DNA of 64,000 nt from Ricordea florida. Lineage: Eukaryota > Cnidaria > Anthozoa > Corallimorpharia > Ricordeidae. The stretch covers positions 32,554,947 through 32,618,946 of the forward strand of contig OX453276.1 of the NCBI GenBank assembly GCA_949710005.1. The letters are read 5' to 3'. Within the stretch, counting starts at the first letter, position 1. Each line of letters opens with the position of its first letter. Below the pieces are notes generated by a model, which worked only from the letters and a program-made list of their open reading frames with translations, was not told the DNA's origin and did no database searches. The translations under genes were made by a program, and so were the position numbers. Of this stretch, positions 15,808-37,800 are shown piece by piece.

Positions 15808-16680
15808 CTAAGAAAACAAATAAAATGACCACAGAAAATTCCTATTTTTCCACCTGTCACTAAAATAACCACCAATTAAAGAGCCACTATTTTTCAGCCC
15901 TTAAAATGACCACTAATAGGCATTTACACAAGTTGCTCGGCAACTTTTTGGCAACTTTTGCCTTTTCGAGCAATGTTTTGGCAACTTTTGGATTTGAACA
16001 ACTTTCCGACAACTTCTTTCAAATTTTACACTTTTTTAACAAAAAAAAGCCTTTTTTCCATAATTTTCGTAAATATTAGTGTTTAAATTTGACCCTCCTG
16101 AGCTAATTCTATCTTTGATTGATAGATTTGCTCTTTCTGTGAAGATCACCAAATATCGTTTCTGGGTTCCTGTGTTTCTCAATATACGAATAAGCGATAA
16201 ACGGTCAGCCATATCTTTGTGAACACGTTTTCAAAATGGCGGATAGTCTTAGTTTTAGCGAAACATATTCCATCTCGGAAGACTGCTAGTGAAGAATCAA
16301 GTACCGACCCAATCAAAGTAGCAAAAGAACGAACAGCAAACATAGGCATTAGAGTTTTGTGAGTATGTAATATTCAGAGGTTAAAAATTATTTGTGTGTT
16401 TTTAAAATGTAATTAGAAGCAAATACTACATTTTTGAACTTTAGAAACGAGCAACTTTTGAGCAACGTTTTCGAAAAAGGAGCAACTTTTGAAGATTTTG
16501 TGGGAAACGTTTAGCAGAAATCCGAGCTACTTGTGTAAATGTCTAACCACTAAAAGCCGCCTAAATTTTATGCCCCTTGAATGACCAGAAAAAAACCGCC
16601 TATTTTTGAACCCCTAAAATGACCACGAGAAGCATCCTATTTTTTAAGCCTCTAAATGATAAACAAAGGCGCCTAGAAAT
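15808..16680. repeat. ~38-bp repeat array (AAAATGACCAC...) with inserted TIR element
   Basis: Units with CTAAAATGACCAC and GCCTATTTTT occur at 15822-15917 and again at 16545-16660. They are split by an inserted element at about 15919-16543 whose ends are GGCATTTACACAAGTTGCTC and its inverse. That insert contains repeated GCAACTTTTGG words. It carries no coding sequence. Confidence 0.6.
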
Positions 16681-16773
16681 AGTGTTTTAAAATCTCATTC
16701 GTGACGAAAGTTACGAAGTCGAATTTCGCAAGACACCGCTGACTCCGTTGTGATCGTGAACGACATCGTGACC

Positions 16774-16882
16774 CAACACGGTCTCCCCCTCAAATGGAGA
16801 GTAATCATCATTTGCAAGATATCCTCAAATGAAGCATATCACTTCAATCTGTTGGACCGTGGTGTCATGAATGGACTGGGGA
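16774..16882 (+). repeat. left terminal inverted repeat of the 18-kb element
   Basis: Begins CAACACGGTCTCCCCCTCAA and ends ..GGACTGGGGA. It pairs with 34626-34734. The ATG of the zinc-ribbon gene lies at 16993, so this TIR is in position to act as its promoter or leader. Confidence 0.85.
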
Positions 16883-16992
16883 TAGTATAGGGATGTTGCG
16901 AAAAGCGAAACTATTATTCACGATCAATTTTATTCCCCTTCACTTCGCTTTTATATCTTTGTTTCACTGGATAGGCTTCTTCATTTCTTACC

Positions 16993-19900
16993 ATGGCAAG
17001 CAATTTAGAAGAAGGTGAGTTCAAACGCTTTTATCCCCTCGCTTTAATGAGGGAGAACACACGATTTAGTCATGAATATTCATCAAGATCAAGACGTGAC
17101 CAGTGATCTATAAAGGAAAGGTATGCAAATAAGTGAAATAAGGCTTACTCTCCGATCGAGATTTCTTCAAGCTTTTGCCTAAAACTGAATCATATTCTTA
17201 GTATTTTGTAAAGTTAGATTGTTGTAAAATTGGATGTGCTACAGTTGCGATACATTGTCTCCATCTTCTACATTAATCAAGCTTTGAAGAATTTGTATTC
17301 TTGTTTCATGTCATGCATCGTTTTGCCGTGGCCATTAGCGGAATCCCGCACTATGGTTATGATTAATTTCTTTCTCGTTTTATATTTATTGTAATGTTAT
17401 AGACATTTGCATTTCCCCCAGTGTTCGTTTTTACCAGGATCTACTGAGAGCTATATAATTTTGCAGTTTCAGCGGGGATCACACCGCAACTGATGCATAT
17501 TTTGGCGCTCTTTTTGCTATCTCGATCAATACTGCAGATTTTAGATGTTGTCACGATCGCCATGTTCGTGCCGCTCGCTAACAAAATGCAAGCCTCAAGT
17601 TTATAACATGTTGTCAGCGTTCCAGAAATAAGAGAAGTATCTCCTCTTCTCAGTCATTCAACAAATATATAAAGGAAGGGCACATTCAAGAAGTTATAAG
17701 GATTCAATGTTTCCTTTATTAAAACAATGCACTTAAAAAGTATTATTTTATTTTTAATTAGTATTTTTATCGCAATACCGTTTTTCCAAGGCAGACTTAC
17801 TATTCTACCTCCATCCTCCCCAAGGCATTTTTTCCCAAAGTTAGTATTGCTCAAGTCTGCCCTCCTTAAGCCTCAAGGTTGATACATGTCCCGTCACTGT
17901 AACTTGTAATTGTGTAACTTGTGTCTATATGTCCGACAACCGGACAGAATTTTCAAAATACTCGGTGACCGGCAGTCGAAATTTTCTCGTGTTATGATTT
18001 TAATATCGGTGATTACCTTATATATACATCCATATTCCTTGTCTCCTAGCCGTAATCCTTAACCTAATTGGCACAATCTACGCGGAAAGCAAAGAAAATC
18101 AGACTGCCGGACACAGAGTATTTTAAAGTTATGCCTCCTACAGCTCCAGTAAAGAGTGAAATATGAACTGTCGGACACAGAGTTTCATTGTAACCTCAGC
18201 CTACTGTCGGACACGGAGACACTTCGTTTAATTAAATGCATTGATAATTCTTAGACTTCACTTAAACCAAAGAGGGACTGCCATTGATTGACTCTTAATT
18301 AGTTACATTGCCTTTACTAAATTCATTTTGTATTCCAAGCGCTTAGTTCAGTCCTAATACTCTGCTTAGGTTGGGATGTTGCAAATTATGTGATTCAAGC
18401 ATAGTGGAAAGTCTCTAGAGGCCTGCAAGGTTTCAGAAGGAAATTTTCATTTTTACACCAACTCTCAACTGTGTATAGTAATTCCTCACACCTGACATCC
18501 TAGAATACATATTCCAAAATATGGCAACATAGGAAGCACGAAAAAAATATAATGAACCATCATGTTGGTTATGGTACTTCCTCTAAATTTCTTCTAAGTT
18601 TTAAGGGAAAAGCACTGCAATTACAGCTTTCAGGAACTTCGGATAGTTTGACTAAACCTTTGGAAGCCCTATTAAACAGTGCAGAACAACCTGCACATCT
18701 TCAGAATTGCTTACGTCACTTTCAGAAAACGTGGCCACTAACTAGAAAAGCTCTCATGCCTTTTGTTTGGGAAAAATTGGCAGTGTGTTACAAGAAAATG
18801 GGAAAAACACCAGCTGCCAGCTTTTAGTATTTGCATGAAGCAGCTAGGGATTGGTAAACAGTAGTCCAGGCAAGGCCTTTTTAGAAACTAAAGGAAGTAT
18901 AATATTTTCATTGTTGCACATTTGCTTCTATCTAGGTTGAGCATTGAAACACTATCCCTTGTACAATCTGCTTTGTTGAACATTTTAATAATTAAAAAGT
19001 CAAGGGAGTCCTAGTAAAGCTTTTGTTGTTCTCCTTTTTCCATGTACAGCCACTAGCAGTATTTCCCTCTATAGCCTTTCATTTTCAGATCCACTTCCAC
19101 TATTACATGTTACATGCAATTGCAGACATGTAACAATGAAATCAAAGCTATGTGTTCAATCACTCAACCCAGCCCTTTGATGTGGTAATAAAATTTCAAG
19201 GCAATACAACCCTACAGGTAAAACATTTTCCAACATTAAATGATCTATGTATCTGTTGAGGCTTAAAATGCCAAATATTTATTTATAAAGGAATTAAAGC
19301 TAAAACAATTCAGAATTTATGAAGAGAATTTCTAAATCCATATCTTTTGGACTTTTTTATTAGGTACACATAATGAAGCAATATATATTATTGCATTGCA
19401 ATATTAAATGCAGTCATTAAATGGATATGCTTCTATGTAGAAGACTACTTGCATGGCAGTCATGGATACAGCAATTTATTTGTAAGGGCATTTTTACCAA
19501 GAAAGGTGAAACAGCCCATCAGAGTTACAGACTGTTACATAGTAAGCAAATTTTATATGATGTGCCCACCAAATAATATATTTTAAGGAACAATGCCAAA
19601 TAACATTATTGTTGTAATATTTATATACTAGAGATGGTTTGCATTTTTTTCCCATTTTCAAACTTTCATAAACCACAAAACCCTGCATCTACTACAGCTT
19701 TGCAAGCTTAAAGAATAATAAATAAACCCAGCAAAGGTACAATAATTCTTTCAAGATGTCAATTAATAAAAGTATATTTATTTAAACCTATAAAAATTTA
19801 TTGACTGCTTTATTTATAAAAGTTAGCTTTGCAGCAAGAATATAGATGTTGCAATAAACACCGTTATTACTAGTTTGAACATGAGTTTGACTTGTGTCAG

Positions 19901-21204
19901 TTCCATTTGACCACAGTCAAAATGTTATATTCTTCTACTAATGAAGCAAAGTGAAGAAGGTAAAAGAGTACATGATGTTGTTCAATTGGTGATACAGAAT
20001 TATTTGATTTCTGTTATCATGGGTGATAAATTACTCCTTAATTTTGCCTCGAAATTTCAGCATTGTTCGCTAATTTCACATGTGAAATTAGAATGTTATA
20101 TGTAATTTGTCACCCATGACATTTATAGGTAATCAAATGGTATACTTGTGGGATTAGGGAATAATTTCACTTGTATTCACGTGCATGAAATTACTTATTT
20201 CACTCATCATCATTTGATTACTCAGACAAATTGCATAGAGCAGGTAGGAGCTTTTAGATAATGCTCTGATTCAATCTTGCAAAGAGGAACAGTGATGATG
20301 TGACAGCTTGATAGCTCAGTGGTAGAGCATTTGCACCAGTGGTGCAAAAGTCATGGGTTCAAATCCCATTCAAGCCTTTAATTCTCCTGTTTTCTTTGCT
20401 TTACCTTTGTTGAACCTTCCTGAAGTATGGGATATTTCTTAAGCTTCCTATTTCCAGGGACTTACTGGTACTAGTTTCTCTTTTTTTATTCTTTTCCAAG
20501 TTCCTTTACTTTCTGATGCATTGGGACCTGATTTGCAGTCAGTTCAAGTGCCAAAGACAGGATATTCTAAGGTACTTGATAAAGTATTATTTATTACTGT
20601 TTTGGGTTTTAATGTTTTAAGGTTTTGGCCCAAGCCAGTGAGAATTCATTTTTTATTACCAGAAAATGGTGCAGATTTCAAACTTCCAGTACTTAGATTC
20701 CCTTACGGCGTTCACAAAAGTTATTTCTGTAAAATAGCATAGTGAGTGTGTTTTTCACTATTTTAGGCCATCATTGAGGTTTTAGGAAGCCAGTCTCTTT
20801 GGAAAAGTGGCCAGTCATTTATAACACAACTATAACGGCTTTATTTGTTGTGTTTCACTCATTTTAAAGTTATGATGATTATGATTATGATTCAGGATTT
20901 ATATAGCGCTTTATCCCAAGGCTCAAAGCGCTTTACAACACTTTTTGTGGGGGACTTTGTCAGACTGCTTATTAAGGCGCAAATTGCAGCCACGCAGTTC
21001 ACAATCTTATCAGAGTGAATAGTAGGATACACAGGTGCCCCCATAACAGAATAAGTGATAGACCATCACACCGGGGACTACGTCCCCTACTCTTTCCGAA
21101 CAGTGTGTGGGTTCTTTAACGTCCCACACCAGTACTGTGAGACGGGACCTACGTTTATCGTCCTTATCCGAGAAGACTAGAAAGTCTAACCATTTGGAGG
21201 TGTC

Positions 21205-21237
<33 letters not shown>

Positions 21238-23314
21238 AAAGACCCTGAGTGTTGGTCCGATCGAGGATTTGAACCCACGACCTCCCGCACGGTAGTCCGG
21301 TGCTCTACCGACTGAGCTAACTGGTTGCGGTTGTTGAAGTATCTGGTTGATTTTACTGTAGCCAGCTATAAGAGCTAGTTGCTGGCTTGTAATGACATTG
21401 AGCCTTCTGTCAATGTTCAAAATATAATATATTTGAAATGTGCTGTACATTACGTGTCTCACCTTATGCTTTTCTCCTAGGAGTAAATATTAATTTGTAT
21501 TATTTTATCTCACAAAACAAGAACCAAGGAATATGTAATATTCATGAACAAAACCTGGAAACTAATATCTAAATGCATCCCACCAGGGGATGTTGGTGGT
21601 AGCTTTCCAGTTGAATGATTGACCTACCCCATAGTAATTTTAAAACAGCTTACATGAGTCTTTTTATGTCATCTTAATCCAGATGGAATGGAACAGTGTT
21701 AATATGACCACCAGTGGGCCATGAAAATCTGACTGGTATTAATATAATAGCTGTATTAATGAGGACTGCAGAAAGAGGAGATGACATTTAAGTTTTAGTC
21801 AAATAACATTGCTGACAGTGGCTTGACAGAAAGCTGCTGTAATGTATTTTTCAGCCAGAAAATGGTAAAATGTAAACTTACACAGGTTTATTTTCAGTGG
21901 CAAATGTAAGGAATATTTTTATGGCATTTGGAATTGTATTTGTAGTCATTCATGCAGCAGGTTTGTTTAACCAAATTGAAGTCTTCTTCCCTCAGTGTCT
22001 GACATTTATTGGGTGATTGATACTGACTGTACTGACAGTAAAGTTTGTTGAATTGGGGGACTTGAACTTGGTATTTTCATCCTATTAGTTCCAGGAGCAG
22101 CTAGTTATGGGGATGTGTTCATCCAGAAAAAAAAACTAGCTATTGTAGCTACTAATCTTGGGTGTGTAGAGTTCATTCAGGTCAAGCCAACGACACAAGC
22201 TTGTGGTACCTTTTTAATGGCAATTTTGAAACTTTTGTATGAGCACCCCTGTTATTTTATAGGAGAAAAATCCTCCAGATGGCGGTGCAACTATTATAAG
22301 TTTGTCGTTCAGCTTCAAAAAAGTCCAGTTGTATGATATACGCTCTCCTTTGAGGTCTGTGAGGATGTTGTGTACCAGTGATGCTGCACTGTTTTTGTGT
22401 GTGTTTTGTTTCTTTACAGAAGTGCACTTCATGTGGTTCATCTGTTCCAAACGCGAGCAAAAGATGTAAGAGTTGTGGGGAGGACATTAAAGTAAAAACA
22501 TTTAATTGGGAAAATCTAAAACAAAAGAAGAAAACACATCCTACGCAACAAAGGAAAATACTTGAATCTCAAGGGTAAATTTTACCTTCATCCTGACATT
22601 TCTTTTGTGAGCTCATGTTTCCATTTGAATTAAGTTATCATTGAAACCGAGAGCCTTTTCCAAAGTAGATTGGGCAAGACTGCACTTTCTAAAGTAATTA
22701 CGCTGCAGTTTTGCAAAGTTGAAATAAGTGTTTACAGTTTACATTTTGCAATGTTTTTTGCTTGACAAGTCAGAAACTCGTTAGTATAAAACAATAACGA
22801 TTTTATTTCCATATTTGGGCGCTTTGCAAGCAATACCAGATAATATAGTTTTAAAAACCAATAGATTTTGTCAAAATGAAAATTGTTTACCATGTGACTG
22901 TGCTGAACACAGCTTGTGAAACCTTGTATTATAACCGATCAGAGTACGATGGCTAAGTATTTATACTCATATTTATTTAATTACCGGTATACTTATCTTT
23001 TTTATTTATGATTAAACGTTTTGAAATCTACACATTCTTCTATTTGTCTCGCTTTTTAAATGTGTCATAGTCCATTTTTGCTTTTCGTGTCTCTGCAGGC
23101 CAATATTCTTAATTATCAACACGGGTGGCATGTAGTCATTCTTGCTTACCATCAACATAGCAGAGGCCATTCACTGTACACGTACGGGACACGCGGGGTT
23201 GGCGAGAGTTTTATCGGAACGACAAAAGCTAAGGCATCCAAGGAGGGCCGTGTTTGTGTCAGCGTTTTTAAAGAGTTCGCTGCAAGTAAGAATCCTTTTC
23301 GGCGAGGTGGTTAG
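16993..23314 (+). CDS. zinc-ribbon protein of the 18-kb element, multi-exon, 3' end uncertain
   Basis: Exons: 16993-17014 (MASNLEE), 20501-20571, 22420-22574, and 23099 onward (donor at 23286 or stop at 23312-23314). The first three join in phase and give a C-x2-C-x10-C-x2-C zinc ribbon (CTSC..CKSC) followed by a basic stretch. The last exon encodes a globular-looking segment (WHVVILAYHQ, then YTYGTRGVGESFIG). Its frame does not fit the exon-3 donor: CAAGG|gtaaat leaves two bases, but the exon reads in phase 0, and the phase-2 reading stops after about a dozen residues. Either a small exon is missed or the gene is damaged. A consensus donor (GCAA|gtaaga) inside the last exon suggests further exons that are now gone. 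Function unknown; the zinc ribbon could be a DNA- or protein-binding accessory of transposition. Confidence 0.55.
17930..18213. mobile_element. TIR element, GCCGGACA-type ends (copy 1)
   Basis: CCGGACAGAATTTTCAAAAT followed by CTCGGTGACCGGCAGT on the left, with ACTGCCGGACACAGAGTATT (inverse type) and ACTGTCGGACACAGAG on the right. Shares its ends with the element at 35168-35385. Imperfect and non-coding. Confidence 0.6.
18552..18830 (+). pseudogene. 91-codon ORF, possible gene-fragment relic
   Basis: An ATG-initiated frame of 91 residues with protein-like composition (PLEALLNSAEQPAHLQNCLR, then PFVWEKLAVCYKKMGKTPAA). In-frame readable residues continue briefly past the stop. I do not recognise the family. 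It lies in the first intron of the zinc-ribbon gene inside the 18-kb element, with no flanking splice sites of note. It could be a captured host exon or chance. Confidence 0.25.
20000..20140. repeat. foldback element
   Basis: CATGGGTGATAAATTAC at 20018-20034 is inverted at 20102-20118 (GTAATTTGTCACCCATG). An inner palindrome TTTCACATGTGAAA lies between. A small foldback MITE in an intron of the zinc-ribbon gene. Confidence 0.6.
20305..20376 (+). repeat. 72-nt tRNA-like sequence, extended anticodon hairpin
   Basis: An acceptor-like GCTTGA/TCAAGC pair, a D arm (GCTCAGTGGTAGAGC) and a T arm (ATGGG TTCAAAT CCCAT) are all present. The anticodon arm is an 8-bp perfect stem TTTGCACC/GGTGCAAA with a 3-nt loop, not a 7-nt anticodon loop, so it should not act as an ordinary tRNA. 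A relative sits at 32536-32607 on the other strand. Confidence 0.65.
20871..21332 (-). mobile_element. tRNA-derived SINE, ~460 bp
   Basis: On the - strand it starts with a tRNA-like head (CAGTTAGCTCAGTCGGTAGA, then GTCGTGGGTTCAAATCC, about 21332-21260). It continues through a body with CGTCCCACACCAGTACTGTG-type sequence (+ strand near 21120). It ends with a tail containing ATATAGCGCTTTATCC and AAAGCGCTTTACA, then an ATCATAATCATAA-like terminus. A and B boxes are intact enough for RNA polymerase III. It lies in the intron after zinc-ribbon exon 20501-20571. Confidence 0.8.
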
Positions 23315-23360
23315 TGAGTTGGCACTTCTACATAATACGTTTCCAGTTTAAATATTTGAA

Positions 23361-24575
23361 CAGCGGGTGTCGTGTAGGCCTGTCACAACTATTTTTAAAT
23401 CTGTGATTGATACCAGACAGTGCTCCGTCCTGCGTCGCACAAGAAAACCTAACTAACAGCATGTACAAGATCTACGAGCACAAAGATTTTTGAGCTCGAA
23501 AGCCACAGATAAGCAATTCCAATACTTAGAGAAACTATCTGTGCAAAAAGGAAACTAAACATGCTCTAGAAATCCAAATAAGGCCTTTATAAGAAACACA
23601 ACCCAACCCTCGGATCGAAACCACACTTACACCATTGGTTTACATAAGCCAATAAGAAGCCAGGATTTTCGATCCTCCCTACGAGTATAACAACGGCAAA
23701 AGAACTCACTTCCTACGGAGAGAATCAGAAATTCCTCTGTCACTCCACGTCAGCTAGAGAAACAACATAGGAGCAACTGACGAGGTTCACTATAGAACCG
23801 AAACTGCAGTATTGCTTGAGAATTACTATGGAGAACAAACTAAATAGCGATAGTAACCTCTTGCCGGATCCATCACCAACAAAAAGTAGCGATGGCGATA
23901 TAGAACTGAGCGAGGAAGAGACGAACATGCCAGGCACGCCTCATTCAGAAATGATCCAAAGTTCTCAAGGAAGAACCACTAATACTCAAACGCCAAGAGA
24001 AAGCCGTAAACGTAACCGCGAAACGCGGAAAGAAAAAGCTCACATACGTGACAGTAGCAACGGCAATTACGGTAGAGCCAGAAAGCGTTAACGCTCTGAC
24101 GAAAAGGCTGCCATGTAGATGTTAGTAAAAAAATCTGAGGAATCTATTGCCATACTACAGGCATTGAGACAAACATACTTGCCCTAGAACACTGAGATAT
24201 AGTGCACGGGCAAAGATCAGACCAGATCCAGAATTTCAATCTGACATCTATAAGATAAGAAAAGACGCAGAGCATCAACTGCTAGGAGCGTTAAAGAAAT
24301 TTCACTACCGTAGCGTAGAGATAAACAAACTGGAACTTAGAGAACTTGAGCGAAAGTATTCTAAAGAAAACCTTATTGAGCAAATGGCATTTAATACAGA
24401 ATCAACCTCTACTGAGTGAGATATACAAAGAGCCTCCCATCATATTGTACAAAAGAGGAAAATCGCTCAAAGACATACTCGTGAGATTCAAACTCTAAAG
24501 GCAAAGAAACCACACTTGCGAACAGCGGGAGTCGTGTAGGCCTGTCACAACTATTTTTAAATCTTTAATTGACTA
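23361..24575 (+). mobile_element. truncated Penelope-like element flanked by ~45-bp direct repeats
   Basis: The word GTCGTGTAGGCCTGTCACAA, extended to about 45 bp, occurs at both ends (about 23361-23410 and 24521-24570), like the repeated ends of Penelope elements. Between them a + strand ORF begins at 23826 (MENKLNSDSNLLPDPSP). It runs 88 codons of acidic then basic sequence to 24091, and continues as broken frames with EFQSDIYKIRKDAEHQLLGA. This resembles the N-terminal region upstream of Penelope reverse transcriptases. No RT lies between the repeats, so the copy is internally deleted. It sits exactly where the two convergent genes of the 18-kb element lose their 3' parts. Confidence 0.5.
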
Positions 24576-24622
24576 CAAAAGAGATACAGTGCAGAATGAA
24601 GTGTTACAAAAAGATGACATAC

Positions 24623-27600
24623 TTTCTTGAGGAATGATAACGATACAATTTCATGTTTCCATCCACATGACATGAGTGCTGTTCTAAAGAGCATGCTGGG
24701 CATTCCATCCAAGAAATACCCTGTGCAACTTGCACTTCATGCATGCAAAACTTCCATTCCTTAAAAGATCTGCTAAAAGTGGGTGCTGTGATTGTTGGTG
24801 CCTAGAAGCACAGGATCATGTGTACTATAGGTGGACTCGGTAGTCGACCGACAGGCGGTCGACTATCGACCGACAGTCGGTCGATAGTCGACCGACATAT
24901 CGGTCGATAGTCGACCGACATATCGGTCGACCGATATAGTCTTAATCCATCGATACTCGACCGATACATGACCGATACATGCCCGTTACTTGATCAATAC
25001 TTCACCGATATGTGACCGACACTTGACCGATACTTTCCGCCGTGTCATTATTTTTTAGTAGGAGGTAGCAAGCCGTGACAGGCCGCACAATCTCTACCAG
25101 TGTGAAACATTTGAAGAACCTTTTATATTTTTGCTCTAACGAGCATATCTTTTAAAGATTTTCCTTTTTTAAAATATATGATGGGTGGATCTTTGAATAC
25201 TTTTTTGAGTAGTCGTTATCCCTGTATGATGTGCCATTTTTTAATTAAAATTTGTTTGATGTTTGGCACTGCTGGTTCAAATTGTTTGACAAAAGGCAAA
25301 ATATCTTTCGTATCTTTTTTGTTCTGTTTGAGCGCTGACTTTCTTTCTGTGAAGTTAATTTCTGATAGGTGTTTATCTACCAGATTTAGTGGGTAGCCCC
25401 ATGCGACCAAGCGTACTCTGAAGTTTAGTGGTTCTTGAAGGATTTGTTCTTAGGAGTCTAAGAGCTTCGCCCTTTATTTCCTTTATGAAACCTTTTTTCC
25501 GATGAATCTTTCGATAACTGTTTGGCTGGTGTCCCACAGTGAAAATATATCGTCAATGTAACGTTTCCAGACTGTAGGTTTTTTGACAGTTTTGCTTAGG
25601 ATTTGTGTCTCAATTTTAGACACGAATATGTTGGCAAAAGCGACAGCCATATTCGTGCCCATCGCAGTGCCGTGAATTTGAAGATAGTTCCTTCCATTAA
25701 ATTGGAAGGAGTTTTCTTTAAGTATGAGACTAAGCATTTCTCTGAGGTAGTGTGTAGGTAACGGAGGGCTATTATTGTGGAACTTGTCGTATGCTTCGCA
25801 TACTGCTTTGATACCCTCTTCTTGTGGTATATTTGTATATAGGCTCGTTACGTCCATCGAAACAAGAAATGTTTGTTTATTTACGCTGGTTCTCTTAATG
25901 ACATTTATGAAATCGGTGGTGTCTTTTAGATACGACTCCTGTGATTTCGATATAGGTTAGAGCAGTGTATCAACAAAAGATGATATTATTTCTGTTGGCC
26001 CATCACAACCGGAGATTATTGGTCTACCTGTGATGGTTGGGTTGTGAATTTTTGTAAGAGTATAGAATTCTGGTATTCTAGGTGGATTTGGTGTTCGGGA
26101 TAGCCATTTCCATTGGTTGAATTTGGTTGAATAAAAACAAAGTTTTGTCAAGTTATAACCAATTGAATTTCCCCTAGCACTGCTTGGTCGAAGTTCTCGT
26201 TGCTTTACGCAATAGAGGGAGATAGCATGAGCACGCATGTTCATGGATTCTCCTTCCTTCTGGCTACAGCTGTGAGCTTCGATCAAACAAAGGCAAACAA
26301 CCGTTACCCACACAAACTTTCGGTATTGTAGCGTACTGTCTTGTACGACAACCTTTATTGAATTCGCCATAATTATGAGTGTCTTTTTTTCTTCTTTTGA
26401 AAACATCTGCCTATCGTAGTTAACATATCTTGGGCGACACGACCCGTTTAATGTGTTATGTAAGCCATTCAAGTTGAGCACGAGTCTTTCTTACGGAAGG
26501 GTCTTTGTTATAAATACGTGTCATACCTAAGTGCTCGGTCGTTTACCCTATCTAGTTTTTCAAGTTTATTTAACCTACATATCTTTTTCAATAGATTGTT
26601 AATTGATTTATTTTCTATATATCTTTTTCAAGTAAATTCAACCTATATATCTCTTGTTTAAACCTCTCCCTTCTTTATTCCCCAGACTCCCACTGCGCTT
26701 TCCTTTCTCTCTCCCAGCCTCCCAGTGGCACAAATAAGCCTCTGCGGAGGACAGGGTTTTACAAGCACGAATTATAGGTACTGCAAGATTTGTGCGTTAC
26801 AATAGACACGGCTACGTGAATCGCACTAAGAGCGTGGAAACGTGGAAAAAGAAATGAATTCTGGAGCAAAACAATGTCATCCGAAAAAATGATATTCCGA
26901 AATTCAAATGAAAATTGTTTTTGAAAGCATGCATTTTAACAAAAGTTTAATTGGCTTTCTTTCCTTTGTATGAAAAATGAGGCTAAACCAAAAATTGCTT
27001 GCAGCTCGAAAATCCACCTCAGCCATCTCCTCCCCATCTCCCATTCAATTTTCTAATTTCCATCCATTACAAATAATGATGATAATGGTGATTAACAATA
27101 ATTGCTTCACATTGCTTGACATCTTTCAGTAATTAAATTTATTTCATCATTTGTTAAGGTTTTGTACCATATAAAATTGGATGTGTAATTAATAATTGTC
27201 AACAGTTTACTAATAGTTACGAAGTTCGTTCCAAAAACATTAAGTGCAACAACCTTATTACATAACATTCTGCTATAACGATGATGTACATTTAAGGCCT
27301 AAAAGCTAAACGTAGAGTAATGTAACAAGAAATCAAAAGTGTTCACAAACTTAGTGATCTAAAACATTTTTTTGGCACAAATTAAAAAAAGGCCTTTTTA
27401 CTCTATATCATAACTGCAATTATTTGCCATAGTTTTAATCTATCTTAAAATAGCACATTGCTAAAGTACAGACTATCCGTGGAGACGGACATAATTAGGG
27501 ATTGTGCAGTAATTACCTGGCAGGCGGGGTTGGAAACCAGAGGGGGGGAGGCATGGCGGAATATCGTAACTAGAGAGAAGGGGTTTGGATGTAATATTTA

Positions 27601-30600
27601 ATACATACGGGAGGCATTACTATTTTTCAATTTTTTTCACAATCTGAAAAAGTGGTAGAAGAGCTATTAGAGTTGCTTACACTGGAATTTAACTGTGAAA
27701 ATGTTTACTACGATTTTTTTGGACCTCCGTACGCTTCTTCGTCGGTGATTCTTCGTTCCCAGATGTCAATAAAGTCCCTGAGGGTGTTGCGAGGGACACC
27801 GAAACGTCGCATGTCCTCCGCAGGGGAGCACCGGTTATCTTTCATTATTTCGAGAACGCCTAAATACTTGCCATGAATTACCGCATAACATACACCTACT
27901 TTGATTCACGGAGATGGAGAAAGGCAAGTAAAATAAAACCCAAAGATAATATAACTGAAAATGACGGATTTCTAGTTACATACGCGCGAGACATCGTGGT
28001 TTACTAGGATCCTTATTAAGTTTACTGAACATTTATTAATGCACCTTAACGTTCATTGCCGTAGCTTTGCCAGGAGAGGTCAGACGGTCATTTCTTTTAA
28101 ATATTTCCGGCTATTGAATTATCAACCTTACTCTTATTCTGTCATGTCTCTTGTTTATCTTATTTTTGATATGTATTCAAATTTTTACAAGTTGTCATGG
28201 TAATGGTCAGAAGTACCTTCATCTAATCATGGATATTTTTTATCAAAAAATTGAAAAATGTGAAGAGATAGATAAAATCGAATGGGCACAAAGATCAAAA
28301 TAGAACCAGTTTTTGACCTCAGGGCGTTGCCAAGGCAATAATTATCTATGATTTCAAGCTCAAAAGGTCGGGCATTATCATCTACTGAACACCGGAAAGC
28401 ATCGAATAATTCAAGCGAGTAACACCTAATAACAACAGACGTTCCAGGGGTCACAACCAATAAGAAAAAATAAATAAAACTGACAATAATAGAAAAATCA
28501 ATAAGATCACCGTATTTACTCTTTTGAGCCCCACCCAAAATAAGTGCCGCATCTAACTTTGAGGCACTTATTTGCGGAAACTACAGTACAGTCTTATTCA
28601 GTTTGAAAAGGCTATTGTTATCAATTCCTTACCTATCAATGTTCTTTTTTTTAAGTAGTATGACGGTTGTTGAATAGGCTCCCCTCTCTAAGGAGCGTCC
28701 CGCACCCAAAGAAGGACGAAATGAATAAAACTTGGAGCTTGAGAGAGTAAATACGGTAAATGAAGATAATTGATGAATAAATTAAATTCTTTTTTTAAAA
28801 TTGTTTTCCCAAATAGAAATCATCCTGTGGGTAAAAAGGGAGAAGCTTTCCTTCGTTTTTTTAACCTATTTGATTGGGCGCGATAATCACTTAGCGCTTC
28901 CCTACATTTTGATTCGATTAATTTTACCGACGTCTTACCCGTCTTTTCCGTAACAAATTGGACCACCCTCTCGTACTTTTCTTCGTCGAGGACCTTTAAT
29001 TCGCAAATGCCAATGAAGTCCCTGAGGGTGTTTCGAGGGACACCGAAACGTCGCATGGCCTCCGCAAGGGGGCACTGGTTTTCTTTCATTATTTCGAGAA
29101 CCCCTAGATATCTGTCGTGGATCCCTTGTAAATTGTATCCTGTGACCAATCCTGGAATATTAGAAAGAAAAAGTCCTAATTCAGAATTCATTACCGTTCG
29201 TTACACCAATTTATGAAATATTGAAACTTTACCTACACTAAGTGAGATGTTCGGCAGATATTTGTCAAATTACCAGTTACATCAGTTTTCTTCTAGAATT
29301 AGTAGGCGCGGTCGTATACTTAGTCGTTTAAATTCAGGCGCTATCGCGCGGTAGCGCCTTAGAAAGCTCTAAGTATTACCAAACCTTATCCCTTTTCACA
29401 TAAAGTTTCTAGTATTTTATATTTGAGGAGCTTAAATTAGTTCTAGATAACTGCTAAGAGGGTAACAGAGGGCTTATGCGTGACGAGTGATAAGGACAAA
29501 AATTAGAGAGTGACGCGTGAAAATAGCGAGAACAGGAACGGAATTCGTTAATTTTTTACATAATCTGCTGTTTCAAGTAAACGTGAGACTCGTCAGTCTC
29601 GTTAAAAGTTGTGCGTGACCAGGACCCCATTCGCACCCCGCCCCTTTCTTACCCTATTGTAAAAGAGGTACTATCTCAGCCGTTCCCCACTGTGACGATG
29701 TGGGATAGTAAAGTTAAGGAGACAATATATTCAGTGAAAGTTCCAACAAACCTCGGCAATTCTTTGAGTCATTGTCTTTTTCTGGCTCCTTGGGGTTTTC
29801 GGTTTCACTCAATTCATTATCTTCGTCCTCAACATCTCCGTCTTTGCCCGGAATAGTCGCCCGCGCCCATACGGTTCTTGAGGTTATTAGGAATTTCAGA
29901 TGATTTTGTCATTTAAACCGTATATTTATGTAAAATATTATTTAGCCTTATATTGTGTAATAACTAGTCAATGTATTTCAATTCGTTTCGAGTTAGTTTG
30001 TTACTGTTGTTCTGTTCTGTTAGTCTGTTCGTCATATCCCCACCATATGCGGATCGACATTAAAGTATATGTGCACACTGTTTTCATGACGGCACAATAT
30101 GAAGCTAGAATAACTCTAGAATATTGTGCCTGAGGCAATTCGCTGTGTTCTATACCACATAATAAAAAATATAATGCTTAAACAAAACATACTTTGTCGT
30201 GACTTCACTCGCATAAGGTAATAACGAGTTGTTAATAATGTAACGACTTTCTAAATCCATGTCTGAAAACGGGTGTATATTTTCAATGTCAGGTCTGAAA
30301 ACGAGTATGGATTTTTGTGGCCAGGTCTGAAAACGGGTGGGAAAAATGGCAGGTTTTGGTCTGAAATTGGGTCTGGATTTTGAGATGCGGGCGGCACACC
30401 CCCACCAAAAATTCCAAAGAGTACCCCCCCCCCCCCGGGTTACAATCTAAGTTCTTTACACGGGTTTATACTGTACCTATGAATGAAATAGATTGAAACA
30501 TCGTTAATGAAATGGCCTAGCACACTCGTAAAGCAAAATTGCTCCAACAATAATTGGCTTTCTGATGTAGACAGTTTTGCTGTGCTGAAGTTAATTTTAC

Positions 30601-33600
30601 TTATGTGTTATTTAATCTATGAGACGGCTGCTCGTAGACGCTACAATGAGTGGTTAAAGAGTCAGTGCGACACCTTATTTTCCTTAAACCTTTATTAAAA
30701 AAAATTACAAATTATGTTAGAAAGATACTACCGATACTAGACCGATACTCGAGCGAGACTTGACTGATACTTGACCGATACATCATCGGTAGGCGATCGC
30801 TCCATACCGACCGATATGTCGGTTGATAGTCGACCGATAGTTCGGGCGACAATCAATGGAATGTCGGTGGACTATCGACCAACAGTCGGTCAACTGTCGA
30901 CCGACAGTCGGTTGATAGTTGACCGTCTGTCGGTCGATAGTCGACCGAGTCCACCTATAGTACACATGATCCGAAGCACATACAGTAAAAAATATTAAAT
31001 TTAAGTATTTCATACAGTACTTCATGTGCAATGAAGAAGGGATTTGGAATTATGACTTTTTGGCTTTGTGTTGGGATAAAGAAAGCTGATCTTAAAAACA
31101 CTACAACAAAATAGTTCTTGAACCCTTGATTCTGATGAAGTCTAAAAAAGCCTAATGACCAGTGTCAATAAGAGCACAGACAGTGGAAATGATGTCAAGC
31201 TCACGCCTCTGTGACTTTCAGTATCTAAAAAATATATGGTTGTTCACCAGCAATCGTGTTTTTATTAAGCAAAGAAATAATAAAAAATGTTCAAAACTTT
31301 GCAATGAAACCACTCGCCTACAGCTCCTGGTTCCACTTGAGTTTTGAACATTATGTGATAGCATTTCTATGATTGATAAGAGTACAAAAATGAAGTAAAT
31401 TCGTTTAAGTAACAATAAAAAGCTGGATAAACCAACCCTTCCTCGTGATTGTGAAAAATCTCCTAGAGATCTTAAAAATGAAATCTCAGATGTCCCTGGA
31501 AGTCTCTTTTGCAGAAAATCCCACTGTCTGAAAAGATCCTGGTGGAAGAAATAAGTGCTGTCTTTTGGACTGCCTGGCCAATATCCAGCAGACAGGATGT
31601 TATTCAAAGACAATGGGTTTATTTGGTGGCTGCACTTACTGCAATTTACTACATAGTTGGTGAAGTCAAATCGTCCTTGGAAAAGAAGCACATAAAAAAT
31701 GACAATAACATCAGTATGCTCATCAACACAACATTCACATGTACCGTATCACTATGTAAGTTAAAATAAAATCCAGACAAGTTTGGATTTCAGACATATA
31801 TGTAAACTTATTTCTGGCATTCATGTAAAATAAGACTGACAAATAATTTTACTGATTTTGTGTTAAAGGTTACTGCAAAAGTTGATGCTCATTTGGATAT
31901 GACAATGTGGAAGTATGTGATTTACAACAATATAATGTGGGTGCTTTACTAAGAATAAACAAAAAATTAATTGTCCTAAATAATTCTTTAATAACAAGTC
32001 AATAATCAATAATCCTTCCACCCCAAGACTGAATAGTAAGATAATTTCTCATACCAATATCAAAACAGGCAGAAAATGAAACTGTTCGGATGACCAAATT
32101 CTTATGTATTCAGAATTTTTCCCCCAGATTATAAAAAAAAATTGGAATTTTGGAAATTTTTGAGTACTGGTATTTTTACTCCTTGGCATGAATAGGAGTA
32201 AAAGGGTAAACACAACCATCACATAGTAGCTCCGTACCTCTTTGATTGATAACAATAACAGAGCCAGGTAATGGAGTAGGTGACATAGAATTTCCCTCTT
32301 GACAAAGTGGACAACATTCTGGCAAAGGTTTATATAAGAAATATTTTCCTGGAATGAACAATATTTATATTATATATCAAAGTAGAATTCTTAAAACAAG
32401 ATTTCTTTTTCAGCAGAAGCATAGCACGCATAATTCTTGTGACAAAAAATAAATCTCTGGGTTTAACATCGGTGAAGTAGTAGAACCCATAAAAACGGTG
32501 TCTAACAAAATTGAAAAAGGGCACAGAACAAAACTGGCTTGAATGGGATTTGAACCCATGACCTTTCCACCATGGGTGAAAATGCTCTCCCACTGAGCTA
32601 TCAAGCCATCACTTCAATGCCTATTTGTTATTTGGTACAACTATACATTTCTCTACCTTGGACAAATAATCACACGGTTTGCGGTCAATTCGCTAACGCG
32701 TCATTTCGCTAACGTCCAATTCGCTAACGTCTTAGGTCGTTTCGCTAACGTCTTATAAATCGGTAAGTTCGATATCGGTAATTAATTAAACTAGCGCAAT
32801 TGTTGGATTGGAACATACTTTAAGTTTTCAGAAAAAACTTTTGATGATTACTTCAAGTTAAGGAGTAGTTAGTTTAGCGCGATCTCACAGTGGTATACCG
32901 ATATCGGACATTTCGAGCGTTAACCGTTCGCTGACCGTGACGTTATAAGACCGCAATATGATGTTTACCGATATCGGCGATACTACGAAACTGGTAATCA
33001 ACTAAAACTTATTGCAAAAGAACTTTAATACTCAATATTGCAAGGTAAACCATCTACACATGCTTCCAATTTACCGATTTATGAGACGTTAGCGAAACGA
33101 CCTAAGACGTTAGCGAATTGGACGTTAGCGAAATGACGCGTTAGCGAATTGACCGGTTACCAATCACACAAGTACTTTGAAAAGTGCTGTTGTTTCATTT
33201 ACTAAGAAGTAAGGATACTGAATGGTGTTGAAACCAAGGTATTCAGGCTGCAAGTGCCTTACAGGCAATATATTTAAGAAAAACAAAACAAAATATTGGT
33301 GTACAAGTAAGTTGCAATACCCCAACCTTTCTAATATAACTTTAATTTCGATAATCATAAAGATATGTTACTAACTAGTCATTTCCAGTTGTCTATCTTC
33401 ACTTATTTGAACAGCTGGTGGTATGTGCCTGAATGCACCATCAACAAAAGCTTCTCTGTCATGAAAAACCAGCTGTTCATGAACTGTGGCATCACATTCA
33501 GGGCACACCCTCCTGCCACCACAGTCAACACAGCGAACCAACCATGGCTTACGATCACAAAGTCCACACAGTGTTGAACCCGAGTTGGGCCCTTCAGAAA

Positions 33601-34597
33601 TGAGAATGGCTTTGAAAATCAAAGGCCTTGATGCCTCCCAATTTTCATTCAAGTTAACCATCCGCTTTTCCCAATTTAGTTCCACTGACTGCAGTGACTC
33701 AAGCATTGCCTGACATTTTGACAGCAGCACCTCAAGTGATTGTTCTGTGTAAAATAAAGAGAAATAAAAACAAGATGGGTGATTTTCCGCTTTACCCTTT
33801 TCCTCACTGTGCATAATGAAGTAACATGTATAATTTTTGTTCGCTATTGAGAAACAAAATTATACTAGAAAATACACCTACACAATGCATAAAGAAGTAT
33901 GGGGTGATACTGAAATCTACCCAAAACGCAATTTCTCCCAATCGTCCTACAGGAATTTTTCCATCAATTCAGACTGTGAATGCCTAACCATGTTCTTGGT
34001 CTGTGTCTTCGTGTTCCAACAAAGTACTATGTCCATCACAACAGACGACCTCTGGAGGCTCTAAATACAAGAATTTAAGAAAAACCACAGCTTAATAATT
34101 AAATTTACACACAGAGAGGATGCAATGTTAAATAAATATGACCTAGTCTAATCCCGGTCTATTATAAATAAAATGTGCTCGGATAATAGAAAGTCTAAAT
34201 TAATTCAAGGCAACGTAGTTCTTAGTTGAAGAAGGTTACACGTGCACAGAAAAAAGTAACCTTACGTGACTCTAAAAAATTAAGATTTTTCACCTTCCAA
34301 ACATGTAGCGGCACTTTCCTGGTTGACTGGTTTGTTCTCTCTGAAACGCGGGCGGTATTTGTGTTTGTATTCTCTAAGCCCCGTACATGGATCACGATGG
34401 AATTCGTACTCGACTTTTTTTTTTTTTTTGGTTGTCTTTTCTTCGTCTAAAAACGCTTGCAACTGATCTACAAGCTCCTCGAGAGTTTCCCTCTTGGAAT
34501 CTTTTCCTTGTTTTCTTTTACATTGCTTCCCTTCACCAGAAGAGGAGGATTGCTCTTGTTCACCGAGTTTCACGCGGTTTTCATCCTCAGACGCCAT
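24623..34597 (-). CDS. CxC/KDZ-like transposase-type gene, six exons kept, 3' part missing
   Basis: Exons, transcript order: 34597-34294, 34060-33989, 33744-~33373, 32348-32238, 31675-~31437, 24801-24623. Phases are compatible throughout. The ATG (34597) opens an acidic/basic N-terminus (SSSSGEGKQCKRKQGKDSKR). Exon 3 has a cysteine cluster (CGLCDRKPWLVRCVDCGG, CPECDATVHEQ). Exon 4 has CCPLC. Exon 5 has CSKC followed by AGYWPGSPKDSTYFFHQDLF and KRLPGTSEISF. Exon 6 has FKEWKFCMHEV and CPACSLEQHSCHVDGNMKLY. This order matches what I recall of CxC cysteine-cluster proteins of KDZ transposons. The exon 3 donor is weak. The catalytic C-terminal part expected after exon 6 is absent, so the gene is probably inactive. 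The 6.16-kb element sits in the last intron. Confidence 0.65.
24840..25030. repeat. left subterminal palindromic array (TCGACCGA family)
   Basis: Repeated GTCGACCGACAGTCGGTCGA-like palindromes followed by looser ACCGATACTTGACCGATAC repeats. The mirror array is at 30725-30958. Such subterminal arrays in TIR transposons are usually transposase binding sites. That role is inferred here. Confidence 0.8.
25095..26140 (-). pseudogene. dead Penelope-like reverse transcriptase
   Basis: The - strand reads PEFYTLTKIHNP, RPIISGCDGPTE, then MDVTSLYTNIPQEEGI, HGTAMGTNMAVAFAN and RYIDDIF. These are the reverse-transcriptase blocks typical of Penelope-like elements, with the YIDD active site. A downstream block (KHLSEINFTERKSALKQN, KKGKSLKDML) follows in another frame. 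An in-frame TAA at about 25963-25965, between the first two parts, and a frameshift near 25490 break it. No GIY-YIG endonuclease was found. It lies inside the 6.16-kb element. Confidence 0.85.
27718..27890 (-). pseudogene. truncated second copy of the helix-turn-helix segment
   Basis: The - strand encodes GKYLGVLEIMKDNRCSPAED, then MRRFGVPRNTLRDFIDI and a stop at KKS. It aligns residue by residue with the core of the ORF at 28820-29191. Upstream and downstream parts are missing. It marks an old internal duplication within the 6.16-kb element. Confidence 0.6.
28509..28757. mobile_element. 249-bp MITE, ACCGTATTTACTC ends
   Basis: ACCGTATTTACTC on the left is inverted at the right end (GAGTAAATACGGT). 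TA-rich surroundings suggest a mariner-like or hAT-like non-autonomous element. It is nested in the 6.16-kb element, downstream of the helix-turn-helix gene. Confidence 0.6.
28820..29880 (-). CDS. psq-like helix-turn-helix protein of the 6.16-kb element
   Basis: The main exon runs 29151-28820. Upstream of it a strong acceptor (TTTCTTTCTAATATTCCAG|GA) matches in phase the donor CGAG|gtttgt of an acidic exon ending at 29752 (GDVEDEDNELSETENPKEPE), whose start I could not fix. An unspliced reading would instead start at the ATG at 29191 (124 codons). The core is DRYLGVLEIMKENQCPLAEA, MRRFGVPRNTLRDFIGI, then CELKVLDEEKYERV. This looks like a helix-turn-helix of the pipsqueak type followed by helices and a basic tail (NRLKKRRK). 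Expected role: DNA binding, perhaps at the subterminal arrays. I recall similar unnamed repeats in cnidarian and sponge proteins, but know no described function. Alternative: a domesticated or hitchhiking host exon. Confidence 0.5.
30250..30400 (+). repeat. ~33-bp minisatellite (GTCTGAAAACGGGTG)
   Basis: Four to five imperfect units beginning GTCTGAAAACGGGTG and ending GGATTTTGTGGCAG. A run of 14 C lies just after it at about 30424. Non-coding. Confidence 0.7.
30725..30958. repeat. right subterminal palindromic array (TCGACCGA family)
   Basis: It mirrors the left array: loose CCGATACTTGACCGATAC repeats outside, then dense GTCGGTCGATAGTCGACCGA palindromes up to the TIR. The array orientation is reversed relative to the left one, as expected for the two ends of one element. 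Confidence 0.8.
32536..32607 (-). repeat. 72-nt tRNA-like sequence, copy 2
   Basis: On the - strand it has a 7-bp acceptor GGCTTGA/TCAAGCC, a D arm, and a T arm identical to that of the 20305 copy. Its anticodon position is again an 8-bp stem (TTTTCACC/GGTGGAAA) with a 3-nt loop. It lies in a KDZ-gene intron. Confidence 0.65.
32676..33161. mobile_element. 486-bp MITE with TTCGCTAACG arrays in its TIRs
   Basis: It is flanked by a perfect 8-bp direct repeat AATCACAC (32668-32675, 33162-33169). Each ~85-bp TIR begins GGT.. and contains four spaced CGCTAACG words. The interior has ACCGATATCGG palindromes. No coding capacity. It sits in the intron between KDZ exons 33744-33373 and 32348-32238. 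Confidence 0.85.
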
Positions 34598-34625
34598 TTT
34601 GTTTTTCAAAGCTCTCTTGTAACTC

Positions 34626-34734
34626 TTCCCCACTCCATTTATGACACCACGGTCTACAGATTGAAGTGATATGCTTCATTTGAGGATATCCTGCAAATGA
34701 TGATTACTCTCCATTTGAGGGGGAGATCGTGTTG
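34626..34734 (-). repeat. right terminal inverted repeat of the 18-kb element
   Basis: The inverse of 16774-16882, ending at the 7-bp duplication 34735-34741. The KDZ-like ATG (34597) is 28 bp inside it, so the TIR must hold the promoter or 5' leader of that gene. Confidence 0.85.
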
Positions 34735-34825
34735 CGTGACCTCACACCCTGCTTCACCTCCCTAACTTCGTGACGCTTATATCAAAATCCTGAGCCCTGA
34801 TCGCTGACCACGCTATAGACAAAAC

Positions 34826-37800
34826 ATGGCTGCGTATCTTCTTCAAGGGAGCAAAACGGTCTTTCCACAGTCCATTCCCTTTGAAAATAGTGTAATGAGA
34901 TCTGAACCTTCTGTTGCTTCATTTGATCAGACAAGGACTGGCCTGGTATTTCCTAGAGGTGTCAAGCGTAAGGGGTCGTATCAAAAGCCTAACATTCCTC
35001 CTAAACAACATGCTCAACAGTTTTTTTGCGAATTGTGTCACATTCAGCTAAACTCGTCTTATCAAGCGGAACAGCACAAATCCGGCAAGATCCATCGAGC
35101 AAAGATCAAGCTATTGGGAAAGATAACTGAGGTATTTAAGACTATAGTGTTTGCGTTGCATTCAAAGGGCAGCCGGACAGAATTTTCAAAATACTCGGTG
35201 TCCGGCAGTCTGGTTTTCTTCGCTTTCAGGGTAGATTATGCCAGTTAGGTTAAGGATTAGGGCTAGGAGACAAGGATTATGGATGTTTACATTAGGTTAT
35301 CACCAATATTAAAATCACAAGACGAGAAAATTTCAACTGCCGGACATCGAGCATTTTAAAAATTCTGTCCGACTGCCGGACAGATAGACACAGCGATTTA
35401 AATTAAAAGCTATTAACAAGTTCTCTTTAACTCTCTTTTTCTTTAGCTGAAATACCGAGCGTCGATTGAATTTTCAATTCTTGTTTTTTTAGTTTTATTG
35501 TGTGGCTTGCGACACTTAAATTGTTATTCTTCTCTGTCGAATTTAAGATTGTAACAAAACGTGAAGATGTTGCTGTAACAAGTTTGCTCATCTCCGGTGT
35601 AATATAATTCATTCATTTTCTTTGTTAGTTAGGGTTAGGTACATTGTTAAGAATGCTTTGTGTCCTTTGTTTTACGTCAGTTGTGTGAATAAATTATATT
35701 ACACCGGAGATGAACCACAAGTTTTAACCACATGTGCGCGCTGCATTTTAATTTTGTATCAGGGCGTGAGTCAGAATACCCATCCACTTAATTACATACT
35801 GATGAATAACGAAAGAGACATTATTATATGCCTGGTTTTTCAAGAGCCTCCGACACATGTAAATGAAGTGGACGGGTATTCTGAAATCGCTTCTTAAATT
35901 GTGGCAAAAATGTGCGTGCTTGCTGTTGTGATAACTTTTATGAAACTTTCTTTCTTGTTAGATTTTCTGTGCCTTTTTTACTATCGTATCAGGGAAAATC
36001 GACGTTAACACGGCGGCAATAACATACAGTCATATCATACATGTATAATAATAGCGACTGTATGTGTTATGGTTCAATTGTATCCTTGATTCAAATTTGG
36101 TTTTCCTTTGTTTCAAACTCATTATTATTGAATTACCATAAACTAAACAAAGAAATGTTTCAAATGCATGTGAAAACATTTCCTGGTGTCGGAGAGTGGA
36201 ACAATAATTCAGTTACACATGCATTCGGAGGTATGGGGTGATTTGGGAATAATAGCATATGTAGCTGTTGAGGTGTGTTCTTACTGTAGTATAGTCATTT
36301 TCAGGTGGACTCATGATGAATAATAATAATTATTTTAAGACAATTGTCTATTGCATGTAGTACCGCAAGGCTTGTTCAATTTCCTAATATCCTTTACAGT
36401 CATTTTAATAATTACTGGAATCAGTTTGAATTTTTCCTTACTAAAATGTGTTTAAAAGTTTAAGTGTAACATTTTACTTCTTTTCTAAAATTTCTCATGT
36501 TTGTGAACAATATCATTGTTTTGGTTGTTGCAGTTTTTGTTGAAGATCTTCACATCAACCTCAATCTTGAATTACCTAGTTGCCATTTATAAACACCGCA
36601 GGTGAAGAAAATAAAATACAAAATCTATGCAATTGTTATGGAATCAGTACCATAATATGTTTTTATTTTCATGAGAAAACAGCTTGTTCTCTCTTAAAAA
36701 TAGCTTGTTATCTCATAGGAGACCTTACTTTTTTATATGTCAAGGTGATGAGAGCACTAAAAGTCTCTTAGGGTGCTTTCCTTTGGTATGATCCAGATTT
36801 GGATTTGTGATCTGAGATCTCACGGATCATGACGTATCAAAGGAACTTATGAATCCTTTTTCCAATGTGAATTTATCAGCTCTGTGTGATCTCAGATCAT
36901 AAATCCAAATTCAGATTGTACCAAAGTAACATATACTTAGATTTCCTTATCTAACATAAGAAAAAGTGTTTCGTTTTATTTTCATGTCTTTTGTTTTAGA
37001 ATGACACAGACTCAGGTGCTGGGAACACCCGTGCAGAGACAGCAAGTCCGCCCGTACAGCTCGCCCTTTCTGCCTCTGTCAATCCAATTGTTAGTGCTAC
37101 AGACAAAATGTCTGCTGTAAGTCTGGTCTGTCTTGTTTGCCAGAAGATTTTTAATTCCAAAATTCAGGCTGAACAACACTTTAATAGCCTTGTGCATCAG
37201 CGCAAGAGTAAGGGAACTTTGGAAAGTTGTACGATACCAACAGCAGCAAAAATTTCACCTTCATTCAAGGGAACAGTAGTAAATTCTTCTGCAGAACAGT
37301 CAATGTTACCAAACTCAGAGGGTACAGTAGCATCTGCAACCACAGCTTTACAGACCCCAGGAGGGGAAGCAGTGCCAGTGGGAGCAACAGTTGACAGTCA
37401 AAGAACCAAAGATCCAGGTGGGTGCTTTGTAATTCTTTAATGTTCAATAATGTTCCAGTCATTGCTAGACCAGGAAAGTTATAATCTTTTGTCCATTAGC
37501 ACAGGTACTGCCAAGAGAAAATGAGGTAAGAGAACGCATCTTCCATACTGGGTTCTCTTACTATGATAAGGGGACAGAATCTATTTTTAGATCCAGAAAC
37601 TATTTTAGCTGACCAACGGCTGATATCCTTCTTGTCGCGCTGGTTGTAATTTCAATGCGCCATGGGGACCTTGACTTTCCACTTGCAGTATTGGGAAACC
37701 ATGCAGACATGGAACGAGACAGAAATAGGTTCTGCGCTAAAAATAGGTTCTGTCCCCTTATCATATCAGATGGGGTTATATTCTCTTTCTTCATTTTCTC

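Follow-up and report, generated by a model that had tools for sequence, protein, structure and literature searches.

The long inverted repeats at this locus of the corallimorpharian Ricordea florida raise the question of whether the DNA between them is a single transposon and, if so, how much of that transposon remains. An earlier note on the same DNA had proposed an intact-ended transposon of about 18 kb carrying two genes. We analysed the locus within a window, the whole stretch of 64,000 nucleotides from contig OX453276.1 in which all positions below are counted. We estimate with a probability of roughly 78% that it holds one insertion of a cut-and-paste transposon of the KDZ superfamily, with the transposase gene on the right, on the minus strand, and a zinc-ribbon gene on the left, on the plus strand. 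The proposed ends are real, whereas the intact 18-kb element is not: at least three mobile pieces are nested inside it, the greater part of the transposase core escaped detection, and the reading frame of the plus-strand gene is broken.

The terminal inverted repeats lie at 16774–16882 (plus strand) and 34626–34734 (minus strand). They share 103 of 108 aligned bases, with five mismatches and two 1-base gaps, in agreement with the about six differences in 109 bp claimed before, and they pair in a blastn self-comparison over 115 bp at 93% identity (E 5e-42). The left repeat begins with the tip CAACACGGTCTCCCCC and contains two direct CCTCAAATG motifs. Directly outside each tip stands an exact copy of the heptamer CGTGACC (16767–16773 and 34735–34741), just as the note had described; an 8-bp target duplication was not found at the outer tips, where exact identity extends no further than 7 bp. 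The element starts with CA and finishes with TG. We attribute the two ends to one insertion. Paired ends with target duplications of 7–8 bp are a feature of the KDZ superfamily, represented here by the 109-bp repeats and the 7-bp duplication, and these observations support the idea of a KDZ-like DNA transposon that has long inverted ends and duplicated its target. Pieces of the end, 28 and 27 bases long, were scanned for exactly and returned 0 loci in IMG/VR and 0 loci in GTDB, neither of which is a collection of eukaryotes.

Outside the element, an ATG at 34826, 92 bp past the right tip, opens a frame with a zf-met zinc finger (34826–35245) that probably belongs to a host gene, and a second zinc-finger frame occupies 38407–38943; zf-met and zf-C2H2_jaz are the families matched by these two frames. 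Since the first frame opens so near the right tip, a host promoter may lie at or close to the site of the transposon. The self-comparison of the window also detected a tandem repeat with a unit of about 106 bp at six sites, three per strand (1258–2020, 6336–7145, 7551–7900, 38975–39309, 39709–39842 and 59967–60597), and, at 9807–10784, an array of tandem units that repeat every 55 bp or so.

Much of the length between the ends is due to later arrivals. The largest is a complete DNA transposon of 6160 bp (24813–30972) between transposase exons 5 and 6, with inverted ends of 113 bp at 87% identity and an exact 8-bp target duplication, GAAGCACA, at 24805–24812 and 30973–30980. A MITE-like insert of 486 bp (32676–33161), with 91-bp inverted ends at 97% identity and the 8-bp duplication AATCACAC, lies in a transposase intron. 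The third piece (23358–24572, plus strand) is enclosed by 53-bp direct repeats at 94% identity; it is a probable fragment of a Penelope-like retroelement, and its open frames resemble the N-terminal part of such elements. Removing these three pieces leaves 10,084 bp, so the 18-kb size was inflated by nested insertions. The inverted ends of the 6160-bp transposon hold tandem subrepeats of 22–23 bp, and its interior contains a reverse-transcriptase frame (RVT_1, 25486–25956) and a CCDC106-like frame under the cut-off (28823–29200). Two tRNA-like repeats on opposite strands (20305–20377 and 32534–32608; 89% alike over 81 bp) are probably derived from SINEs, and a 208-bp repeat inside the element is also present outside it at 35185–35392.

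The earlier description of two inward-pointing genes that start next to the repeats is supported by presumed starts read from the sequence at 16993 on the plus strand and 34597 on the minus strand. In our model, the transposase gene on the minus strand has six exons. The presumed exon 1 (MASEDENR..., 34294–34597) is open, its ATG being 28 bases inward of the repeat. It is followed by exon 2 (33989–34060), which is phase-compatible with a weak donor, by exon 3 (33403–33744) with a B-box-like cysteine cluster (zf-B_box, E 4.5e-4, under the cut-off), and by exon 4 (32238–32348), to which the CxC3 match on the spliced model reaches back and which therefore carries the first part of this cluster. 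Exon 5 (31437–31675) contains the CxC3 cluster, and exon 6 (24623–24759) is phase-compatible with a weak acceptor and encodes the stretch CPAC...HVDGN. The model remains open over 1205 bases, or 401 codons, and stops shortly after the presumed first catalytic Asp; the start phases are 0, 1, 1, 1, 1 and 0, and this openness is a result biased by the picking of the exons by eye. Splice scores are weak for the donors of exons 2, 3 and 5 and for the acceptor of exon 6.

Exons 4 and 5 are independently supported, both by the CxC3 match and exon 5 also by its relatives. CxC3 (PF18804, cut-off 26.6) reaches 71.7 bits when the frame is left unspliced and 91.1 bits in the spliced model; it is one of the CxC cysteine clusters that accompany KDZ transposases upstream of their core, and the transposase is grouped with KDZ because of it. 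In the protein database, all nine candidate relatives of exon 5 matched (E 5e-40 to 8e-24) in a search with a short query that admitted shorter candidates. The right limit of the exon is common to 9/9 relatives and the left limit (G-R/Q-FDF) to six, P0008, P0009 and P0010 differing there. At 38 positions, disregarding two inserted columns, all the relatives have one residue in common, and the window copy has it at 37 of them; exon 5 is therefore not visibly decayed. Weak matches of the model to DUF4404 and DUF4723 both fall under the cut-off. NCBIfam yielded only matches far under theirs. No relative turned up in IMG/VR in scans with the CxC3 exon, with exon 4 of the zinc-ribbon gene or with the alignments of both, which is unsurprising for an element of eukaryotes.

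The zinc-ribbon gene on the plus strand was modelled with four exons. The presumed exon 1 (MASNLEE, 16993–17014) was read from the sequence; it has a donor score of 8.1 and no homolog. A possible exon 2 (20501–20571), chosen by eye, is phase-compatible with weak splice scores. Exon 3 (22420–22574) carries the CxxC...CxxC pattern and matches the double zinc ribbon (DZR) at E 2e-4 with 21.9 bits, under the cut-off of 27.3. What stands of the zinc-ribbon gene proposed between the ends is thereby a zinc-ribbon-like exon with a match below threshold. No homolog of exon 3 was found in the protein search, and a comparison of the zinc-ribbon part with solved structures gave weak matches, mostly to ribosomal eL37 (best E 0.0025). 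Exon 4 (23099–23285) has one match among 16 candidates, the unnamed 98-aa protein P0001, at 72% identity. Upstream of the exon 4 acceptor, the window frame and P0001 have in common, by eye, the adjoining Gln alone, and the likeness fades just past the CAA|GTAAG donor, suggesting that the true zinc-ribbon protein probably runs beyond exon 4. In GTDB the alignment of exon 4 found no relative, and a structure prediction of this exon from 2 sequences was too poor for use (mean pLDDT 50.6). Between exons 3 and 4 the frame breaks in the window copy, and no bridging exon between them, nor any later exon after exon 4, scored above the limits of the scan; the gene is consequently either broken or partly understood.

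Most simply, the zinc-ribbon protein would be the product of an accessory gene of the transposon family. Some 110 bp separate the left repeat from its presumed exon 1, which mirrors the arrangement of the transposase gene, and a search for repeats of at least 25 bp across 16000–35600 detected no strong inverted pair around the zinc-ribbon gene alone. Both observations speak against the most serious competing account, in which the gene belonged to the host or to another mobile element and was caught by nested insertion or capture. We give that account a little less than an even chance, since the first intron contains a tRNA-like repeat together with a repeat of which another copy lies outside the element, the gene has a single known relative exon, and exons 3 and 4 do not join in frame. 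That the zinc-ribbon protein is required for transposition is a tentative proposal, which we would bet against rather than for.

The zinc-ribbon gene and the transposase gene both lack a recognised 3' end, and for the transposase the part not found is the one that defines its superfamily, the transposase core of PF18758 with three acidic residues. The CPAC...HVDGN stretch of exon 6 is presumably the start of this core with the first catalytic Asp. PF18758 gave no match in six frames, on the spliced model or on exon 6, and no KDZ exon past exon 6 was recognised by Pfam, motif or exon scans, which may miss single exons. A scan for core-like motifs on both strands returned many chance matches, among which exon 6 alone was KDZ-like; the other core scans failed to flag even exon 6, and absence of the core is unproven. 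The scan for missing exons used approximate splice matrices, and the four weak sites of our own model would fail its limits. Two candidates after exon 6, at 24179–24240 and 23631–23678, were set aside as weak, located inside the nested fragment and, by eye, devoid of KDZ-like residues. In the available excerpt on Pristionchus, Zisupton-type proteins reach up to 1400 aa, and two families have 18 and 31 exons; by these lengths, more than half of the transposase should follow exon 6. Where exon 6 ends, only about 122 bases outside the nested fragment separate it from the end of plus-strand exon 4, so that any further transposase exons must overlap the plus-strand gene. Further minus-strand exons within the introns of that gene could have been missed by the scans.

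The failure to find the core could also be read as original rather than acquired: the element would be a non-autonomous composite that never had a full transposase here and was mobilised only by a transposase from elsewhere. Several giant families of Ectocarpus bear only genes without homology to transposases, according to the available part of PMC12477816. We regard such an origin as unlikely, because exons 1–6 of the transposase are open and in phase, albeit chosen by eye, and because exon 5 is conserved, which is what a piece recently derived from a functional gene should show.

Still less can be said for two inverted repeats from different insertions with a coincidental duplication, which we judge highly improbable: CGTGACC does occur 8 times and CGTGAC 30 times on both strands of the window, but an exact 7-mer abuts both tips, something seen for a single pair when 2000 pairs of positions were drawn at random, and the 28-bp end piece, allowing at most 3 mismatches, matches the two ends alone within the window and none of 100 shuffles.

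The single KDZ-type insertion that we favour would have had the following history. The transposase would have bound the ends via its zinc clusters, perhaps at the repeated CCTCAAATG motifs, excised the element and inserted it into a target cut with a 7-bp stagger. Later the centre, where the two convergent genes had their 3' parts, would have been lost, perhaps together with the insertion of the 23358–24572 fragment, and other transposons would have landed in the introns. For both genes no 3' end was recognised, and they are last seen flanking the region of 23.3–24.6 kb, from which we infer one central deletion. The window copy probably no longer makes a working transposase, but a transposase from another copy could still mobilise its ends.

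A wider proposal, which we consider rather doubtful, is that the locus represents an animal KDZ lineage characterized by 7-bp duplications, long inverted repeats and a regular convergent zinc-ribbon gene acting with the transposase, of which the window copy is a centrally deleted member. By analogy with RAG2 beside RAG1, the zinc-ribbon protein of such a lineage may serve in end recognition or targeting. Two convergent genes per element are likewise found in Harbinger and RAG-like transposons, as the available excerpts on them describe. The transposases of Harbinger and RAG-like transposons are unrelated to KDZ, and their target duplications are shorter.

The platyfish Zisupton is 11 kb long with 99-bp repeats. 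It resembles the present element in having extra domains and differs from it in bearing CxC7 instead of CxC3, as far as the available excerpt goes. The multi-exon transposase between inverted repeats is a further likeness to Zisupton, as seen in the excerpt on Pristionchus. Zisupton and Dileera have 8-bp duplications, as given in the accessible part of PMC12730594, whereas the window element has 7 bp. According to that part of the same paper, published in 2025, two fungal Kyakuja families have 7-bp duplications and CA..TG ends without inverted repeats. The window element has the same duplication length and the same termini, and its CxC cluster places it in the same superfamily; the 109-bp inverted repeats and the zinc-ribbon gene set it apart. 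Being Kyakuja-like in its 7-bp duplication and CA..TG ends but having inverted repeats, it is most likely a KDZ-type transposon, to which we assign no subgroup.

Neither the size nor the cargo of the element is unusual in itself, contrary to what had been suggested. KDZ1 of Cryptococcus neoformans is about 11 kb long with 241-bp inverted repeats, a length comparable to the 10,084 bp of our element after removal of the three nested pieces; it differs by 8-bp duplications and a CxC1 cluster, and the available excerpt of its description mentions no zinc-ribbon gene (PMC12810828). In Ectocarpus, the giant DNA transposons, a class to which KDZ elements belong, in general bear extra genes and pseudogenised transposases, and KDZ-1_Ec32 contains nested transposons; their accessory genes are mostly of unknown function, and no zinc ribbon is named among them in the accessible part of the paper (PMC12477816). 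Because other KDZ elements have similar repeats, length, nesting and extra genes, size and cargo alone do not single out the present one. No report of a zinc-ribbon companion of a KDZ element was found in the open-access literature, among the matches listed.

In our view, few DNA transposons have received as little study as the KDZ elements. The partner gene named in the excerpts of the KDZ literature examined is the fungal TET/JBP gene, borne by Kyakuja-1_LB and -2_LB of Laccaria (PMC12730594). If animals do have a KDZ family in which a second gene is conserved, it would provide a testable two-protein system. The locus suggests how an element of about 10 kb could grow to 18 kb by nesting and, with both of its ends retained, lose its transposase. 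The combination of a 7-bp duplication with long inverted repeats blurs the boundary between Kyakuja and Zisupton.
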